Part shown: in pieces, positions 4,429 through 38,029 of the stretch
Position numbering within the stretch: position 1 is the first letter of the stretch
Layout: each line of letters opens with the position of its first letter
Source: Psychromonas algarum
GTDB lineage: Bacteria > Pseudomonadota > Gammaproteobacteria > Enterobacterales > Psychromonadaceae
DNA: 38,062 nt
Direction: 5' to 3'
Assembly (NCBI RefSeq): GCF_004376845.1
Contig: NZ_SNUW01000017.1
Location: forward strand, 1 to 38,062
Made by a program: the position numbers and the translations under genes
The notes under the pieces: generated by a model
Databases searched by the model: none
What the model was told of the DNA's origin: nothing
Seen by the model: only the letters and a program-made list of their open reading frames with translations

Positions 4429-4758
4429 TTACGCATCTTTTTTGATGCTTTGGTAATTGTTAATATCTAGTTGATACTCTTTTTTAAGACAATTTGATGC
4501 AATCAAACCATCAATAACTTTACGCATCCACCCCGGTAACTCGGAGTTCACTTGGTAATAGACCCACTGCCCTTCTCGTTTATCTAACAGCACACCCGAC
4601 TGACGTAAAATCGCTAAATGTCGCGAAATTTTTGGCTGGCTTTGCTCAAGTGCAACGGAGAGATCCCCGACACTGACCGAATTTTCTCTCGCAACCAGTA
4701 TTAAGCAGCGTAAGCGTGTTTCATCGGATAACATTTTAAAAAACTGATTAGGTAACAT
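4429..4758 (-). CDS. arsR: ArsR-family repressor of the ars operon, atypical sensor
   Basis: Small winged-helix ArsR/SmtB-type regulator, about 109 residues from ATG 4756-4758; an in-frame GTG at 4770 would add four residues. The recognition helix region is SQPKISRHLAILRQSG, followed by a beta-wing DKREGQWVYYQV. The usual ELCVCDL metal site is replaced by SVSVGDL, with serines where the arsenic-binding cysteines would be. The only cysteines are near residue 22 (counted from the GTG) and in SNCLKKEY near the C-terminus. It heads the operon and probably represses it through the dyad overlapping its promoter. The inducing ligand is therefore uncertain: either an arsenite site formed elsewhere or another signal. 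Confidence 0.88.
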   Translation of the reverse strand: MLPNQFFKMLSDETRLRCLILVARENSVSVGDLSVALEQSQPKISRHLAILRQSGVLLDKREGQWVYYQVNSELPGWMRKVIDGLIASNCLKKEYQLDINNYQSIKKDA

Positions 4759-4770
4759 ATTTAAATCCAC

Positions 4771-4816
4771 ATATACGAATATCCATATATAATAAATAAA
4801 GAGAATGGTAAGTCAA
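4771..4816 (-). promoter_or_regulatory. ars operon promoter and likely ArsR operator
   Basis: Minus-strand -35 TTGACT (4811-4816) and -10 TATTAT (4789-4794) are 16 bp apart. An AT-rich imperfect dyad, ATATACGAATATCCATATAT on the plus strand (4771-4790), overlaps the -10 region and start point, where a repressor would block transcription. The 5' leader before arsR would be only 10-25 bases. Confidence 0.7.
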
Positions 4817-4846
4817 CTCTATTTATTGTTTATTCTGTATTAATTA

Positions 4847-6232
4847 TTATTTTAAGATTTTCTTAAGCCAAAAAAGCTTATGTTTATAAGGAGGGTAAAT
4901 AACGGGGAGATCAAACCAAGTAGCAGCTTTGAGAACACTTTTTTTATGTGAAAAACAATCAAAACCATGTTTCCCGTGATAACTGCCAATACCACTTAAA
5001 CCAACACCACCAAAAGGTAAGTGAGGATTTACAAGGTGTTGTATACAATGGTTAATTGCCATACCACCAGCTTGAATTGCTGACGTAAGTTGCTCTTGTG
5101 TTTTATTATCTTCACTAAAAATATAAGCCGTTAAAGGATGACTAGGTAAAGAGTGAATAATATTAAGAATATCTTGATGCTCAGAAAAACTAAGAACAGG
5201 TAAAACAGGACCAAAGACTTCTTGTTGCATGATAGGATCGGTAAGTTCTACGTTTTCTAGTACGGTTGGCGCGATATAACAGTGTTCAATATCATACTGA
5301 CCACCGACAATGGCTTTATCTGTATCAATCAACTTACTAATACGTTGCGTATGTTTGCTATTAATAATGCGTCCAAAATCTTCACTTAATCTCGCATCAT
5401 CTCCATATAATATTTGAATACGTTTTGCTATTTTAGCTAAAAAATCTGATTTAATAGCATCGTCTACCAACACATAATCAGGTGCCACACAGGTTTGTCC
5501 GGCATTTAACATTTTCCCATACACGATTCGCTTAACAGCAATATCAAGGTTGGCATCTGCACAAACAATACAAGGACTTTTACCTCCGAGCTCTAAGGTC
5601 ACCGGAGTTAAATTCTTAGCAGCTTGTTGCATTACTAATTTGCCTACTTCGGTACTACCCGTGAAAAAAATATGGTCAAATTTTTGTGCCAATAAACAAG
5701 TGACGTGTTCAACATCACCATTAATACAGGTTACATATTCAGGCTTAAAAATTGAGTCAATTATTTGTTTTAATACTCGACTCACATTAGGCGTTAATTC
5801 AGATGTTTTTAACACACAGCAATTGCCTGCTGCAATCGCGGCAATTAATGGAGACAAGGTTAAAGAAACGGGATAATTAAAAGGTGAAATAATTAAACAT
5901 ACACCCAATGGCGTTGAGTGTATGTAACTAGTAGCAGGTTGAGATAATAAAGGTGTTTTAACTTTTCTAGGTTTTAACCAATGTTTTAACTGTTTAATTG
6001 TTGTGCTTATTTCGTGTAAAACAAATCCAATTTCAGCGACATAAGATTCAAATTTAGGCTTCCCTAAATCGTCTGCTAACGCTTGTGTTAAAACAGCTTC
6101 ATTGTTTAATATTACTTGCTTTAATAAATCTAACTGCTGCTGTCGATATGCTAAAGAGAATGGTTGATTAGCAACAAAAAAATCACGCTGTTTTTGCACC
6201 ATTTGTTCAAAAGCAACAGTTAATGACATCAT
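4847..6232 (-). CDS. Aldehyde dehydrogenase, ALDH3-like
   Basis: The 461-residue NAD(P)-dependent aldehyde dehydrogenase has all catalytic landmarks in order: oxyanion-hole asparagine N119 in SPFNYP, FFTGSTEVG at 189-197, general base E214 in LELGGK, and nucleophile C248 in NAGQTC. Compact length, PFNYP and the hydrophobic C-terminal tail (YKHKLFWLKKILK) resemble the class 3 or fatty/coniferyl aldehyde dehydrogenases, some of which are membrane-associated by the tail. It oxidises an aldehyde to the acid; the true substrate cannot be told. The second ATG (6227-6229) is better spaced from GGGAG than the first. It lies 23 bp downstream of sixA, so co-transcription is likely. Confidence 0.9.
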   Translation of the reverse strand: MMSLTVAFEQMVQKQRDFFVANQPFSLAYRQQQLDLLKQVILNNEAVLTQALADDLGKPKFESYVAEIGFVLHEISTTIKQLKHWLKPRKVKTPLLSQPATSYIHSTPLGVCLIISPFNYPVSLTLSPLIAAIAAGNCCVLKTSELTPNVSRVLKQIIDSIFKPEYVTCINGDVEHVTCLLAQKFDHIFFTGSTEVGKLVMQQAAKNLTPVTLELGGKSPCIVCADANLDIAVKRIVYGKMLNAGQTCVAPDYVLVDDAIKSDFLAKIAKRIQILYGDDARLSEDFGRIINSKHTQRISKLIDTDKAIVGGQYDIEHCYIAPTVLENVELTDPIMQQEVFGPVLPVLSFSEHQDILNIIHSLPSHPLTAYIFSEDNKTQEQLTSAIQAGGMAINHCIQHLVNPHLPFGGVGLSGIGSYHGKHGFDCFSHKKSVLKAATWFDLPVIYPPYKHKLFWLKKILK

Positions 6233-6255
6233 TAAACTCCCTTACTGCAAAAATA

Positions 6256-6732
6256 CTAAATAATAATTTGAGGTACCGTAGTTAAACTTAATAATTGCGC
6301 AAAACCATCTTCATCATTTAATGATATGTGCCCTACAGCTGATGTTGAGAAAGCTGGTACACCAGCAGCAGGTGCTAACTCCCCTACAATATAACCAACT
6401 AAAGGTAGATGAGAAACAATCAATATAGACTTTAACCCTTGAGCTTGAAGCGCAAATATTTCATCGACCGTATCTCGTGCACTACCACTTGGTGTTAAAC
6501 AAGGTAACGTTTGAATATTAGTAATGCCTTCAAAAAAAGGACTGACTGATTCCCAAGTTTGTTGAGCTCTAACGTAAGGACTGATTAACACTGCATCAAA
6601 AGAAACTTTTTGTTTAAGTAAATACTTCGCCATTAACTCAGATTCTTCTCGCCCAATATCTGTTAAATTACGTTCAGCGTCAGAATAAGCCATCATTTCA
6701 GCTTGCCCATGTCGCATTATATATATCTGCAT
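6256..6732 (-). CDS. sixA: Phosphohistidine phosphatase SixA
   Basis: The 158-residue histidine-phosphatase-fold protein starts MQIYIMRHGQAE, with the RHG nucleophile motif at residues 7-9 (H8 forms the phosphoenzyme). The second catalytic histidine is in ILIVSHLPLVG. SixA enzymes remove phosphate from histidine on phosphocarrier or histidine-kinase domains, such as ArcB or PTSNtr NPr, in the cytoplasm. Length is normal for SixA. It starts at ATG behind AGGAGA and is followed 23 bp later by the aldehyde dehydrogenase on the same strand. Confidence 0.9.
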   Translation of the reverse strand: MQIYIMRHGQAEMMAYSDAERNLTDIGREESELMAKYLLKQKVSFDAVLISPYVRAQQTWESVSPFFEGITNIQTLPCLTPSGSARDTVDEIFALQAQGLKSILIVSHLPLVGYIVGELAPAAGVPAFSTSAVGHISLNDEDGFAQLLSLTTVPQIII

Positions 6733-32644: not shown

Positions 32645-32964
32645 TCCGCTTCTTCATTGTAAATTTCGTAAACTGAACAGTTACTTGTGTCAATTTACGT
32701 CCTGAATTGAACTGTTTTTTCAGCGCAAAATGTAGATACATATTTATTGTCATCAGTATTATCAAAAAATGATCAGCATAAATTCAAAAAAACTCAGTAA
32801 TCAATTAGTTGAAAAACAAAATCCGTTGTATATTTGAGAAATATTTATATCTTCTACTTAGAGCATCCATCATGACACTACAGAGAAAGAAGTTAGTGTG
32901 TAATAGCTAATATAGTAACTAAGTAGATATGTATTCTACGATCATCTAACAAATGGATACGTTT

Positions 32965-33657
32965 ATGACCTCAAGATTATTGAAAAGTGCAATAGTAACT
33001 ATTCCAACTATTTTTTTAAGCACTAATGTGTTTTCCGCTGAAGAAGAAAAAAAAGAAACAAGTATTGAACCTATAGATTTTACGACTTACCGTGCCATCG
33101 ATACACCTGTAAACTATAGCTATATTGCTCTTAATTTAGGTAAAGACGATTACGATAACTTTGATCCCTCTGTAACAACAGCTGGATTACGTGGTCAAGT
33201 ATTACTTAATGAAAGATATATTTTCAAAATGGGTTACGAAACCTCACTTCTAGACAAAGATAATGCAGGTAACGATCTTTCATATCAATCAAGTGTTTTT
33301 GGTATGGGTATCGGCTTACGTCAAGCAATATTTAAAACAACCGATATCGAATTTGATGCGCATGTGCTCTACAACTGGCGTGATAATGATCAGACCAATA
33401 AATCCGAGCAAGAGTTAGGCTATAAAGTGGGCGCTTATATCAATCAAGGCATTGGTGATAGTTTTGAAGGTACTCTTGGGGTTAATTACGTTTCAGAATA
33501 TAGCCAAGAATCATTTAACTTTCTTCTTTCTGGAACACAATACATTACAGAATACGTAGGTCTAGGTCTTGATGGTAAATTAAGTAACCGATCAAGCAGC
33601 ACCTTCACAGGTGACTTGCTCTATGTTGGTGTTCATCTACGTTTAGCATTTTACTAA
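32965..33657 (+). CDS. Outer-membrane beta-barrel protein
   Basis: About 230 residues from ATG 32965, which has GGA upstream at a fair distance; ATG 32953 would add four residues and lacks one. A signal peptide (MTSRLLKSAIVTIPTIFLSTNVFSA) is followed by a short charged linker, then alternating amphipathic strands (YSYIALNLG, YIFKMGYETSLL, DIEFDAHVLYNW, FEGTLGVNYVSE, LLYVGVHLRLAFY). The last residue is aromatic, the usual signal for barrel assembly. I count about eight to ten strands. Specific family and function not recognised. Confidence 0.75.
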   Translation: MTSRLLKSAIVTIPTIFLSTNVFSAEEEKKETSIEPIDFTTYRAIDTPVNYSYIALNLGKDDYDNFDPSVTTAGLRGQVLLNERYIFKMGYETSLLDKDNAGNDLSYQSSVFGMGIGLRQAIFKTTDIEFDAHVLYNWRDNDQTNKSEQELGYKVGAYINQGIGDSFEGTLGVNYVSEYSQESFNFLLSGTQYITEYVGLGLDGKLSNRSSSTFTGDLLYVGVHLRLAFY

Positions 33658-33680: not shown

Positions 33681-33712
33681 AGCTCAGTTATAACAATATC
33701 TGAGCTGTTTTT
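33681..33712 (+). terminator. Terminator between the barrel protein and topB
   Basis: AGCTCAG and CTGAGCT arms (33681-33687, 33700-33706) with a 12-base loop, then GTTTTTATTT. It reaches the convergent topB stop. Confidence 0.8.
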
Positions 33713-35642
33713 ATTTCTTTTTAAATCCTCCTTTTGTATTTGTCGTCTTTCTTTTGCGAAAAGGCTTTTTAAATCCTTTAGGGCTAGCAGGTAAATTAAC
33801 TAATGCTTGTGGTCCATCACTAATCGCTCTTGTAATTATATTTTGTAATTGTTCTTGTAATGGAAATACAAAGCCTTGATAACTTTGCTCTTTCTGACTA
33901 ATTGCATCCAACTGCATTTCCCATAGAGCCGTCATATCAGGCAATGTTAAATTATCAGGTAAACTTTCAATTAATTTTCTTCCCACTTCTGTTGCTTGAA
34001 TTGTTTTACCTACTCGTTGTAAAAACTGACGTTTAAATAATAATTCTATAATGCCTGCTCGTGTCGCTTCAGTCCCTAGACCATCAGTTTCTTTTAATAC
34101 TTTTCTTAATTCAGGATCCTGTACAAAACGCGCAATATTACTCATTGCAGCAAGTAACGTTGCATCACTAAAATGGGTTGGTGCTTGAGTATTTTTATCA
34201 ACAACCTCTCCTTTTTGGCAATGCAGAATTTGCCCTTTTTTTAAGTTAGGTAAAAAACTTTCAGTTTCCTTTTGTGGAAATAAAATTTTCCATCCATCAC
34301 TTTGTTTAGACTTAGCTTTACTAATAAACAAACCTTGGTTTATTTCAATTTCTGCAAAGCATTCAGCATAACAATAATCATCATAAAACTGACTAAGATA
34401 CTGCCGTGCAATCAATTGATAGATATTCTTAGAAACAATATCTAACGAACTGCTTAGCTTTTTTGTATCTGTTGGAATGATTGCATGGTGTGCATCAACT
34501 CTACTATCATTCCAAGCCCTGCCCTTAATCGACAAATTAGCATCAGTCACCGCTTTTTGCATAGCAGGTTCATTGTTAGCAATTGCTTGTACTACATATT
34601 GCGCCTGTTGATGGTGGTTACGTGGTAAATATCGCGAATCTGAACGAGGATAGGTAATTAACTTATGTTTTTCATACAATGCTTGAGCGGCATCTAACAC
34701 TTGTTGTGCACTATAACTAAAACGTTTTGCGGCATCTATTTGCAACCCAGATAAATTATAAGGTAAAGGTGCTATCTGTTTTTTGTTTTTATTAGTAAAG
34801 CTTTTTACCTGTGCGGGTTGGTTTGTTATACGTGCTGCTACGTTTTCCGCTAATGCTTTAACGATAACACGCCCATCACTATCTTGATAAGCAGCACATG
34901 CTTCGCTAGGCTGCCATTTAGCGGTAAAAGTAGATTCAGCGAGGTTGTCAGTTTGACAATGCGCTAATACCTCATAAAAAGGTTTACTAACAAACTCTTC
35001 AATTTCTTTATCACGCCTTGCAACCAAACCTAATAATGGTGTTTGTACTCGCCCTACAGAAATCACTCCTTGGTAACCTGACTTTTGTGCAAGTAAGGTA
35101 TAAGTACGGGTTAAATTCAAGCCATATAACCAATCTGCACGGGTTCTTGCTAATGCTGAAGTTGATAAAGGAATAAAGTCTTGATTGGAACGAAGCTGTT
35201 GAATCGAACGCTTAACGGCATTAACGGTTAAATCATTAATTAAACAACGCTGTACCTGTTTTAATTTAACACCTTTCACACCACTAAAATGGATCACTTC
35301 ATCAACTAATAACTGTCCTTCCCGATCAGGATCACCAACGTGTACCAGTTGATCGGCTTGCTTAATTAGTTTTTTTAATATGCTTAATTGTTTACTCGTT
35401 TGCGCAACAGACTTTAATTTCCATTTATCAGGAATAATAGGTAAATGCTCAAACTTCCATTGCTTAAAAGCAGGATCATAAACCTCAGGATCAACTTGTG
35501 TTAGTAAATGTCCAATACACCAACTCACTACATCGCCATTAGCAACATAAATACAGCCATCAGCTTTACGATGTGGTTTAGGAAGCGCATCGGCAACAGC
35601 ACGCCCTAGACTTGGTTTTTCAGCAATATATAATTTCAACAC
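33711..35642 (-). CDS. topB: DNA topoisomerase III
   Basis: The 643-residue type IA topoisomerase aligns with E. coli TopB throughout. It has the TOPRIM start KLYIAEKPSLGRAVADALPK, DPDRE at residues 104-108 for metal binding, SVGRVQTP, and the active-site tyrosine Y331 in ITYPRSDSRYLP. It decatenates and resolves single-stranded intermediates. The first codon here is GTG, but the TTG one codon later gives the usual MKLYIAEKPSL start, and GGGGTGA upstream could serve either. The C-terminal tail is basic (FRKRKTTNTKGGFKKK) without zinc-finger cysteines, as in TopB. Confidence 0.95.
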   Translation of the reverse strand: MLKLYIAEKPSLGRAVADALPKPHRKADGCIYVANGDVVSWCIGHLLTQVDPEVYDPAFKQWKFEHLPIIPDKWKLKSVAQTSKQLSILKKLIKQADQLVHVGDPDREGQLLVDEVIHFSGVKGVKLKQVQRCLINDLTVNAVKRSIQQLRSNQDFIPLSTSALARTRADWLYGLNLTRTYTLLAQKSGYQGVISVGRVQTPLLGLVARRDKEIEEFVSKPFYEVLAHCQTDNLAESTFTAKWQPSEACAAYQDSDGRVIVKALAENVAARITNQPAQVKSFTNKNKKQIAPLPYNLSGLQIDAAKRFSYSAQQVLDAAQALYEKHKLITYPRSDSRYLPRNHHQQAQYVVQAIANNEPAMQKAVTDANLSIKGRAWNDSRVDAHHAIIPTDTKKLSSSLDIVSKNIYQLIARQYLSQFYDDYCYAECFAEIEINQGLFISKAKSKQSDGWKILFPQKETESFLPNLKKGQILHCQKGEVVDKNTQAPTHFSDATLLAAMSNIARFVQDPELRKVLKETDGLGTEATRAGIIELLFKRQFLQRVGKTIQATEVGRKLIESLPDNLTLPDMTALWEMQLDAISQKEQSYQGFVFPLQEQLQNIITRAISDGPQALVNLPASPKGFKKPFRKRKTTNTKGGFKKK

Positions 35643-35787
35643 TCACCCCACTGTTTTTATACACAGTATTTTATAAATAAGAAAAATTCAAGCTTCGACT
35701 GATTTTATTTGCAACTAAGTCGACTATTGTTTGACTAATAAATTATGCCTTTTACACTTTGAGAATTATCTTAATAAGAATTTATCT

Positions 35788-36261
35788 ATGAAAATATCAA
35801 AAAAAATAATTCCAATATTATGTTTTAGCTCCACTCTGCTTATTACCGCTTGTAATACGGAACAAGAAAAAGAATTAACAAAAGCTAAAGAAATCCCTAT
35901 TAAATCTTGGGAAACAGTAGAAAACTCTAGCAAAGAGATCTGGGAAAAAAGCAAACAAACTGGATCTGACATTTGGGTATTAAGTAAAGAAAGCACTCAA
36001 GAAGCTTGGCAAGAAGGTAAAGAATCAAGCCAAGATCTCTTACAAAAAGGCAAAGAGTCTAGTGCAAGTATTTGGCAAGAGAGTAAACAAAAAACATCTG
36101 AAAAGTTACAATCATTAGGGGAATCAACAAATAATATATGGCAAGAACATAGTGAAAAAATACAAAAATCATTAACAGAATCAATAGATAAATTAAATGA
36201 CAATATAAATACTGATAATACTGATAATACTGATGAGCCTTATGAATCCGATGAAATTTAA
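35788..36261 (+). CDS. Lipoprotein built of 11-residue helical repeats
   Basis: 157 residues from ATG 35788; an in-frame ATG at 35731 adds 19 residues before the signal and is unlikely. The lipoprotein signal ends LLITAC. From about residue 40 the chain repeats every 11 residues: tryptophan or leucine recurs at exact 11-residue steps (W, W, W, W, L, W, L, W, L), with units such as WQEGKESSQDL, LQKGKESSASI and WQESKQKTSEK. This predicts a long amphipathic helix. The C-terminal tail is acidic, with a 9-bp DNA repeat coding NTD three times. No family recognised. It is probably anchored to an envelope membrane by lipid, with the helix lying on or linking surfaces. Confidence 0.8.
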   Translation: MKISKKIIPILCFSSTLLITACNTEQEKELTKAKEIPIKSWETVENSSKEIWEKSKQTGSDIWVLSKESTQEAWQEGKESSQDLLQKGKESSASIWQESKQKTSEKLQSLGESTNNIWQEHSEKIQKSLTESIDKLNDNINTDNTDNTDEPYESDEI

Positions 36262-36301: not shown

Positions 36302-36649
36302 TTAATAAAAGAAATAAAGAAGCACTATGCTCATATTCAATAAACTCATTAAATAGAACCAAGCTCTAAAACTAGCTTTAGTTGTTTTATGATGAAAGAG
36401 CAATTGACCTAATATACTGCCCGGCCAACCTGAACATAAAGCTAAAAGATGAAAATATTTTTCTGGTGTTCTTCTCCAGTTTTTTATTGCCGCTATTTTA
36501 TCTATTCCATAGAACAAAAAACTCAATAAACTACTCGCCACTAAAAAATAAAGAAAAATGATTGGTAGTAGCTGAATTGACTGATAATAAACGATAAATG
36601 CGCTATAAGTAACAGCTATCATAAACATGATTATATTTTTAAAATTCAT
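36302..36649 (-). CDS. DUF1294 membrane protein
   Basis: 115 residues from ATG 36647-36649 (GAGGTG upstream); a GTG at 36658 adds three. Three to four membrane spans with the DUF1294 landmarks: YGIDKIAAIKNWRRTPEKYFHLLAL, GWPGSILGQLLFHHKTTKASFR (each quoted in part: DKIAAIKNWRRTPEKY and GWPGSILGQLLFHHKTTK). In many bacteria this domain is fused to a cold-shock domain; here it stands alone. Inner-membrane, function unknown. Confidence 0.88.
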   Translation of the reverse strand: MNFKNIIMFMIAVTYSAFIVYYQSIQLLPIIFLYFLVASSLLSFLFYGIDKIAAIKNWRRTPEKYFHLLALCSGWPGSILGQLLFHHKTTKASFRAWFYLMSLLNMSIVLLYFFY

Positions 36650-36753
36650 AGTAAACACCTCAATAAAAAGGCATTTACCATAACGCTATTTCAAATTTTT
36701 AACTAGCATTAAAACTTATTGAAAACACAAAATAAAACAGTGGGCATAAAAGG

Positions 36754-36820: not shown

Positions 36821-38029
36821 ATGGATCAGAAGCAATTAGAAGCGTTTGCTCGTGAAGCCACTAAAACATTAAAAACAGAAAAAGACCTCAATAACTTTAG
36901 TCAGATGCTAACTAAGATAACCGTTGAAGCTGCATTGAATGCAGAATTAGACGACCACCTTGGTTACTCCAAACATCGAAAATCATCAACCACTAACAGT
37001 CGTAATGGCAGTTCAACTAAAACTATTATTACTGACGATGGCCAGTTTGAACTTGAAACTCCCCGTGACAGAGAAGGCTCTTTTGAGCCTCAGTTAGTCA
37101 AAAAACAACAAACTCGTTTTACCTCAATGGATGACAAAGTGTTAAGCCTATATGCGAAAGGCATGACAACACGTGAAATAGTCGCTACGTTCAAAGAACT
37201 TTATGGCGCAGATGTCTCTGCTTCACTCATTTCAAGGATTACTGATTCGGTGATTGAACAAGTGATTGAATGGCAATCTAGACCCTTGGATAATGTATAT
37301 CCTATTGTTTATCTTGATTATATTGTGCTTAAGATTCGCCAGGATAAACGGGTCATCAATAAAGCTGTCTACCTAGCACTAGGCGTCAATATGGAAGGCC
37401 AGAAAGAACTGTTGGGCATGTGGATGTCTGAAAATGAAGGCGCTAAATTCTGGCTTAACGTGCTGACCGAACTTCAAAACCGAGGTGTTAAAGATATCTT
37501 AATCGCTTGTATTGATGGCCTCAAAGGCTTTCCTGATGCGATTAATACGGTTTACCCAGAAGCACAGATACAACTCTGTATCGTGCATATGGTTCGGAAT
37601 TCAATTAAGTACGTACCTTGGAAGGATTACAAAGAACTGACGGCTGATTTAAAAGGTATCTATCGAGCAGTGACTGAAGATGAAGCCTTAAAGGCATTGG
37701 ATGACTTTAGTGATAAATGGGATGAGAAGTACCCTCAAATCAGCCGTTCATGGCGTGCTCATTGGCATAACCTCAATACGTTGTTTAGTTATCCTGAGGA
37801 CATCAGGAAAGCGATATATACGACCAATGCGATTGAGTCATTGAACAGTGTAATACGTAAAGCCATCAAGAAACGTAAGGTGTTCCCAACGGATGATTCG
37901 GCTAAAAAGGTGGTTTATCTTGCTATCATGGATGCATCAAAGAAATGGACGATGCCAATAAGAAATTGGAAAACGGCCTTGAATCGTTTTATGATAACGT
38001 TCGAAGACCGTCTTAAAGACTACGTTTAA
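36821..38029 (+). CDS. IS256-family transposase
   Basis: The 402-residue mutator-type DDE transposase has catalytic residues assignable as D166 (YLDYIVLK), D232 (CIDGLKGFPDA) and E339 (TTNAIESLNSVIRK), with the C/H-containing CIVHMVRNS between. The N-terminal region includes the DDHLGYSKH and SRNGSSTKT blocks usual for the family. It starts at ATG with AAGGA upstream. Length is normal and no frame damage is visible, so it is probably active. Confidence 0.95.
   Translation: MDQKQLEAFAREATKTLKTEKDLNNFSQMLTKITVEAALNAELDDHLGYSKHRKSSTTNSRNGSSTKTIITDDGQFELETPRDREGSFEPQLVKKQQTRFTSMDDKVLSLYAKGMTTREIVATFKELYGADVSASLISRITDSVIEQVIEWQSRPLDNVYPIVYLDYIVLKIRQDKRVINKAVYLALGVNMEGQKELLGMWMSENEGAKFWLNVLTELQNRGVKDILIACIDGLKGFPDAINTVYPEAQIQLCIVHMVRNSIKYVPWKDYKELTADLKGIYRAVTEDEALKALDDFSDKWDEKYPQISRSWRAHWHNLNTLFSYPEDIRKAIYTTNAIESLNSVIRKAIKKRKVFPTDDSAKKVVYLAIMDASKKWTMPIRNWKTALNRFMITFEDRLKDYV

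Follow-up and report, generated by a model that had tools for sequence, protein, structure and literature searches.

Psychromonas are marine bacteria of cold habitats. A gene transcribed divergently from topB in P. algarum, within a 38,062-nucleotide stretch of contig NZ_SNUW01000017.1 (the whole of that stretch hereafter being the window), encodes a 157-residue protein with an export signal, in which Trp or Leu recurs at every eleventh residue (Table 1). No Pfam or NCBIfam model was over its cut-off for this protein. A sequence-only reading of the same DNA had likewise recognized no named family, and had predicted a lipid-anchored helix lying on, or bridging between, envelope membranes. What, then, might a Trp-striped protein of this kind do in the cell envelope? 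It is probably a weak, protective coat or rod. In the preferred reading, to which we give a probability of roughly 0.4, it would be an amphipathic, LEA-like helix that is exported to the envelope, usually with a lipid anchor, and that buffers its surroundings by weak and reversible contact.

Table 1. Features of the hendecad gene and its flanks, in window coordinates.
Feature	Position	Strand	Basis
Trp-hendecad lipoprotein gene, 157 aa (ATG at 35788, stop codon 36259-36261)	35788..36261	+	ORF, orthologues, dN/dS
Signal peptide, residues 1-21, ending L-I-T-A before Cys	35788..35850	+	Sequence reading; lipobox pattern in 17/21 orthologues
Cys22, predicted lipidation site	35851..35853	+	Lipobox pattern
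Rod, ten 11-residue units, residues 30-139	35875..36204	+	W/L periodicity
Single predicted helix, residues 38-142	35899..36213	+	AlphaFold2
Acidic C-terminal tail, residues 140-157, ending Asp-Glu-Ile	36205..36258	+	DEI in 16/20 orthologues
9-base unit, three perfect copies within the tail	36208..36234	+	Tandem-repeat search
Possible promoter of the gene, TTGACT-16-TACACT	35731..35758	+	9/12 consensus matches
topB, DNA topoisomerase III, conserved divergent neighbor	33711..35642	-	Pfam, synteny
DUF1294 membrane protein, neighbor in some species only	36302..36658	-	Pfam; cluster c6 in 6 loci including the window

Periodicity, anatomy and conservation

The nine consecutive 11-residue periods counted by the sequence-only reading slightly understate the run. 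Trp or Leu stands at residues 30, 41, 52, 63, 74, 85, 96, 107, 118 and 129 of the window protein, with Ile140 as a possible continuation, and a ten-step run arose in none of 20,000 shuffles of the protein at any period from 3 to 22. Spectral power at period 11 was equalled by 19 of 100,000 shuffles and that at 11/3 by 11 of 100,000. In a control set of 280 other proteins (100 aa or longer) taken from the fetched loci, no period-11 run of Trp or Leu exceeded five, a length reached in proteins of 1366 and 1336 aa. The mature window protein contains six Trp. The sole tandem DNA repeat detected between positions 35600 and 36400 is a 9-base unit confined to the C-terminal tail, and the periodicity is therefore a property of the protein rather than of recent DNA duplication.

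Two further expectations of the earlier reading, that the Trp spacing would be kept in homologues and that repeat number would vary, are borne out by 21 orthologues, in which 148 of 154 mature Trp share one register and the rod ranges from 6 to 14 units. The longest rod, that of L018, has one Trp off register. Gaps in the rod alignment are mostly whole 11-residue units; between the sisters L003 and L013 the gap columns number exactly 11. This 21-row alignment (A1) omits the copy with an in-frame stop (L026, genome G022), a different protein (L028) and seven loci of other families (L015, L016, L024, L025, L027, L029, and L030). The unit profile, built from 201 units including a few outside the conservative rod limits, reads W73 - E/D - E/K - S40/G27 - K64 - E45 - S/K - S57 - K/E - E/D - L32/I20/A17. 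The proteins are very hydrophilic (GRAVY -1.11 to -1.62), with Ser, Lys, Glu and Gln making up 43-56% of the mature chain; the rods are Lys-rich, almost without Arg or Pro, lack Tyr and contain 7.8% Trp. Delimited as for the unit profile, the rod is net acidic in 20 of the 21 orthologues.

The anatomy is close to certain: a signal peptide, a Cys in most species, a linker, the hendecad rod and an acidic tail that usually ends in DEI. By pattern and by eye, a lipobox Cys is present in 17 of the 21 orthologues and is replaced by a plain signal peptide in the other four (L012, L018, L020, and L021). Placed on a topB tree, with the broken G022 copy scored as not lipidated, the anchor state requires three changes, at least two of them forced by well-supported branches; this count is rough because the tree has a very long G013 branch (54% identity) and only 7 of its 18 inner branches are well supported. 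The lipid anchor proposed from the sequence alone is thus predicted for most orthologues, although its replacement in 4/21 argues that anchoring is not the core of the function. The residue at +2 after the Cys is mixed (Asn, Asp, Gly, Ser, or Tyr), so the target membrane is not readable from the lipobox. The linker between Cys and rod spans 43-53 residues in 13 of the 21 orthologues and is short in the window protein. Tail sequences vary and their final three residues are mostly constant: among the 20 C-terminally complete orthologues (L002, which ends at a contig edge, is excluded) 16 end in DEI, with DDI, DET, DEN, and DQK found once each.

A copy of the gene was found in 22 of 24 Psychromonas genomes, its own included, and one of these copies, in G022, is broken by one in-frame stop. 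In the remaining two genomes (G003 and G017) topB was not matched either, and their assemblies may therefore lack the locus. The dN/dS ratio is 0.14-0.19 in seven close orthologue pairs and 0.125-0.34 in four more distant pairs.

The locus and similar repeats elsewhere

The gene is divergent from topB in 22/22 copies and is the nearest ORF of at least 80 aa to it in 18 of these; in L035, L036, L050, and L051 the two lie up to ~4 kb apart. No neighbor besides topB is shared among the 22 genus loci. Downstream genes differ between species groups, so the surroundings indicate neither an operon nor a function. Promoter-like sites resembling the one in Table 1 number six in the region against 4.4 expected by chance; a TTGACTA element precedes the gene in 7 of the 20 further genus loci that were scanned and is also visible in the upstream alignment of L006 and L007. 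In the window, a Mutator-type transposase occupies 36821-38029, close to the contig end. A 234-aa ORF at 32953-33657, beside topB, has a signal-like start and no Pfam match; it gives the impression of a small outer-membrane barrel, and its cluster occurs in only 2 of 27 loci compared.

The intergenic region also carries a LexA-type box (CTGT-N8-ACAG) at 35651-35666, 8 bases upstream of the topB ORF. Such a box begins -1 to 58 bases from the topB start in all 21 genus loci with a full topB ORF, and 0.36 would be expected by chance in the window alone. In Vibrio parahaemolyticus, binding of LexA at the topB promoter is reported as confirmed by EMSA (PMC3323433). SOS control of the hendecad gene was considered and rejected: the box adjoins topB and lies ~65 bases upstream of the possible promoter of the gene, and it is therefore assigned to topB. 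The topB ORF of L047 (G013, 4660-6579) is only 54% identical to that of the window, compared with 74-90% for other full-length copies, and the hendecad gene still adjoins it divergently. The topB of G013 could be a foreign allele substituted at the original position.

How far do such proteins extend beyond the genus? A genus profile matched 60 of 394 genomes of the order at E<=1e-4, including the 22 genus genomes. In a homology-free scan, 369 class genomes were searched for five TGG codons spaced 33 bases apart, and 106 gave some match; the reversed pattern, used as a control, was likewise found in many genomes, and most of these matches are therefore noise. The window gene is itself missed by the pattern because its longest Trp-only run is four. 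Among the matches listed, 30 loci of which were extracted and the rest judged by eye, at least five genomes (G408, G427, G510, G610, and G681) carry K/E/S-rich Trp hendecads, in six genes, all six of which begin by eye with a signal peptide or lipobox. A match in G616 resembled, by eye, a phage tape-measure protein. A mixed profile (A3) matched 13 of 321 class genomes at E<=1e-10 and 12 of 299 phylum genomes at E<=1e-12, the window's own genome included in both. Export signals were seen by eye in eight of ten loci read from the class set (of the other two, L138 was unscored and L146 is the same gene as L140; among the eight, L148 is a second G408 gene already counted in the TGG set) and in nine of ten loci of the phylum set (L154 was unscored); because A3 includes signal-peptide columns, it favors exported proteins.

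Similar exported Trp hendecads (W-x-x-T/S-K-x-x-S) thus occur in other Pseudomonadota. In 86 Trp-led units from 13 hand-chosen proteins of these other families, position 4 is Thr in 80%, position 5 Lys in 91% and position 8 Ser in 62%. One protein, L140, has 17 units, and L141, L142, and L145 are hendecads with few or no Trp. In L142 (G595), a cytochrome-c-like segment (CKLCH) appears by eye to be fused to a hendecad lipoprotein. No topB lies beside the gene in five other-family loci read with their flanks, or in L132. L131 and L127/L148, from different bacterial families, have a C-terminal stretch in common (ESWR..AKEKSH...DYSYRQW) and so look truly homologous. In general, shared ancestry and convergence would both fit repeats of this kind. 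It is rather unlikely that exported W-[DE]-x-[TS]-K-[EQ]-x-S-x-E-[AVIL] hendecads are an unnamed, recurrent envelope class of Pseudomonadota, anchored or not and of ~3-17 units, which would cover periplasmic membranes as a self-organizing helical coat and use the Trp-Lys pair as an interfacial lock, a bacterial counterpart to perilipin/LEA coats.

Eight relatives gave no match over Pfam cut-offs, and nine further relatives none over Pfam or NCBIfam cut-offs, the nearest being RDM3_C at 34.0 of 35 bits. L140 has a sub-threshold match to LEA_4 (E 4.4e-07, 30.1 of 51.1 bits) together with sub-threshold apolipoprotein and synuclein matches. LEA_4 does not match the window protein at E<=1 and is absent among the best 25 of the 33 Pfam families matched by the 21 orthologues; PF02987 matched in 0/24 genus genomes, a result to be read beside control genomes that likewise gave no match. 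Among those best 25 families, the lowest E-value is 0.0011 (Apolipo_F, one member), and YtxH matches seven orthologues with a best E of 0.0045. From NCBIfam the best is 1.3e-05 (DivIVA_Wag31, three members), while Ag473 (NF047840) matches five of the 21 at E<=0.01 (best 0.00029) and scores 12.9 bits against its 100-bit cut-off on the window protein. These matches of the orthologues are read as helix composition, as is a weak PADLOC match to ZorA (E 0.00039), which was rejected. A single-sequence search of 5.8 billion proteins yielded nothing at E<=0.01 (17 candidates), and an alignment search of the same collection found eight at that threshold, one of them named Psychromonas. No recognized paper on Trp-hendecad lipoproteins or on this gene was among the top-ranked results of literature searches, which is not a claim that they are unpublished. 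Lpp (PF04728) matches neither the window protein nor anything in its genome, with E. coli positive as a control, and is found in only 4 of the 24 Psychromonas genomes. These, small in number, are G022 (broken hendecad gene), G005 and G021 (altered DEI end), and G004 (which ends in DEI).

Predicted helix, membrane affinity and known systems

The one long helix expected by the sequence-only reading was returned by AlphaFold2, run on single chains with the 21-row alignment, as an uninterrupted helix of moderate confidence (mean pLDDT 65.6, pTM 0.24; 66-83 in ten-residue blocks over 41-140). Taking 0.15 nm per residue, its 105 residues would span ~16 nm. For the window rod, the moment computed over the full length with 98.18 degrees per residue is 0.382, against a mean of 0.084 and a maximum of 0.279 in 2,000 shuffles. 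The apolar face, made up of positions 1, 4, 8, and 11, is thin: Ser, Gly, or Thr predominate at two of them. The lipid discrimination factor of the window rod is 0.10 on average and 0.95 at most, and the Wimley-White interfacial energy, including a helix term of -0.4 kcal/mol per residue, averages +0.40 kcal/mol per 11 residues among the orthologues (range -0.55 to +1.29); in other families it is +2.84 for L015 and -0.85 for L140. By these energies membrane binding is marginal, and a helix lying on the membrane is a candidate arrangement beside a right-handed bundle.

The nearest studied relative in kind is BilRI of Aggregatibacter actinomycetemcomitans, described as an outer-membrane lipoprotein classed as LEA_4 with eleven 11-mers, encoded by a stand-alone gene with higher promoter activity at 27 than at 37 degrees C, and reported to enhance natural transformation (PMC8096337). 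Like the window protein it is a small, very hydrophilic Gammaproteobacterial lipoprotein with 11-mers, a stand-alone gene and a predicted helix (PMC8096337). The window protein has both lipobox and ten units, although 4/21 orthologues are without the lipobox. BilRI has no aromatic residues and ten of its 11-mers end in KD[A/T] (PMC8096337), whereas the window protein has Trp in most units, Ser at the places of Ala in LEA_4, and no LEA_4 match. NMR found BilRI disordered even though two programs had predicted 97 and 92% helix (PMC8096337), a warning for the AlphaFold2 helix described above.

The LEA_4 11-mer is given there as regularly repeating Lys, Asp/Glu, and Ala (PMC8096337). Psychromonas proteins share the 11-mer repeats and the high hydrophilicity; their units keep the Lys and Glu positions, but Trp, Ser, and Leu mostly stand in place of Ala. 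One group-3 LEA protein, like its homologues, is described as touching membranes reversibly and as having a weak hydrophobic moment (PMC10808001). The likeness to this protein (tardigrade HeLEA1) lies in the amphipathic 3-11 helix elements and weak moment, and the difference in an apolar face enriched in Ala/Thr there and carrying Trp in Psychromonas (PMC10808001). Near-zero interfacial energy and a thin apolar face point to the same marginal binding in the Psychromonas rods. Apolipoproteins, synucleins, and perilipins also have 11/3 helices with an unbroken apolar stripe (PMC6164224), but they are eukaryotic, and the window protein matches none over cut-off and has an interfacial energy near zero.

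These proteins form a true and conserved family that has no name, and are a variant, marked by Trp, of the LEA-like or hendecad helices found in the bacterial envelope.

Possible roles: buffering, bundling or bridging

In the preferred reading, the mature chain would be fastened to a periplasmic membrane leaflet or lie free close to one, and would be weakly folded or disordered alone. A 3-11 helix would form when the chain meets lipid, another copy of itself or a partner, and weak, reversible contact at many sites would buffer the membrane or neighboring proteins against cold, freezing, and osmotic stress. A conditional helix of this kind is favored by the very hydrophilic chain, the variable anchor and length, and the disorder of the best-studied relative. 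The sub-threshold LEA_4, apolipoprotein and synuclein matches of L140 and the precedent of BilRI also speak for this reading. Weak contact at many sites would explain why length and anchor are free but the stripe is fixed. The net acidic charge of nearly all the rods makes a poor fit to anionic lipid, and this counts against a coat. So do the low mean lipid discrimination factor, the unfavorable energy of the L015 hendecads, the lack of LEA_4 matches in Psychromonas, the contrast between Trp-rich rods and aromatic-free BilRI, and the moderate confidence of the AlphaFold2 model.

Alternatively, the helices might associate with each other through the stripe, forming a stiff rod off the membrane as a constitutive right-handed hendecad coiled coil. 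This is possible, though on balance unlikely. In hendecads the apolar positions a, d, e, and h are spaced 3-1-3-4; Martinez-Goikoetxea and Lupas have reportedly surveyed hendecad coiled coils. Positions 8, 11, 1, and 4 of the Psychromonas unit match this spacing, but two of them are mostly Ser, Gly, or Thr; a right-handed bundle would fit as well, and the rods also resemble hendecad coiled coils in growing by whole hendecads. The register would place Ser/Thr/Gly at a and h, Leu/Ile at d, and Trp at e, with small residues between Trp and Leu/Ile as a helix-packing groove needs, and it is held through up to 14 units. However, any 11/3 amphipathic helix shows such spacing, and the core would be thin in other families, which often have Ala/Val/Gly at position 11 and Thr at position 4. 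Positional electrostatics gave no diagnosis of packing.

Could the protein instead fix how far outer membrane, wall, and inner membrane lie apart, in place of Braun's lipoprotein? Lpp is a trimer with a C-terminal Lys for wall linkage. Like the window protein it is a small helical lipoprotein, and the lipid anchor in most orthologues, the scarcity of Lpp in the genus and the length of the predicted helix would suit a spacer or tether. Yet the window protein lacks the C-terminal Lys, ending in DEI, and four species have lost the anchor. An intact hendecad gene remains in three of the four genomes with Lpp; one is therefore not clearly exchanged for the other, and replacement of Lpp was rejected. 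The bridging helix proposed from sequence likewise fits poorly with rods that range from 6 to 14 units (~8-22 nm) within one genus. Such a spacer is improbable.

A scaffold, in which the Trp marks dock a periplasmic partner and the DEI end is a separate recognition tag, is improbable as well. Its model is the phage tape-measure protein, described as having a variable number of 11-residue units marked by Trp/Phe, which are held to anchor small auxiliary proteins (PMC3271669). Trp marks every 11 residues in variable number are indeed a likeness, W-T/S-K-S is common to several families, and the last three residues are mostly kept though the tail varies. Tape-measure units, however, serve tail assembly (PMC3271669), whereas the Psychromonas protein is exported and far shorter at 157 aa. 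No conserved neighbor beyond topB and no candidate partner were found. A phage tape-measure protein as such was rejected: topB, DUF1294, and the Mutator transposase are the neighbors, with no phage genes among those read. Finally, chance periodicity in an unconstrained ORF, to which the low-complexity composition and the G022 stop might point, is refuted by the shuffles, the shared Trp register set against 280 control proteins, the low dN/dS of the seven close pairs and the copies in 22/24 genomes.

No Pfam or NCBIfam model claims these proteins, though they are kept throughout most of Psychromonas and have look-alikes in other Pseudomonadota. If they are indeed LEA-like coats of the envelope, they would provide simple helices from nature that differ in length and carry their own Trp reporter, with which to study bacterial protection of the periplasmic membrane face in ice brine, salt, and cold.
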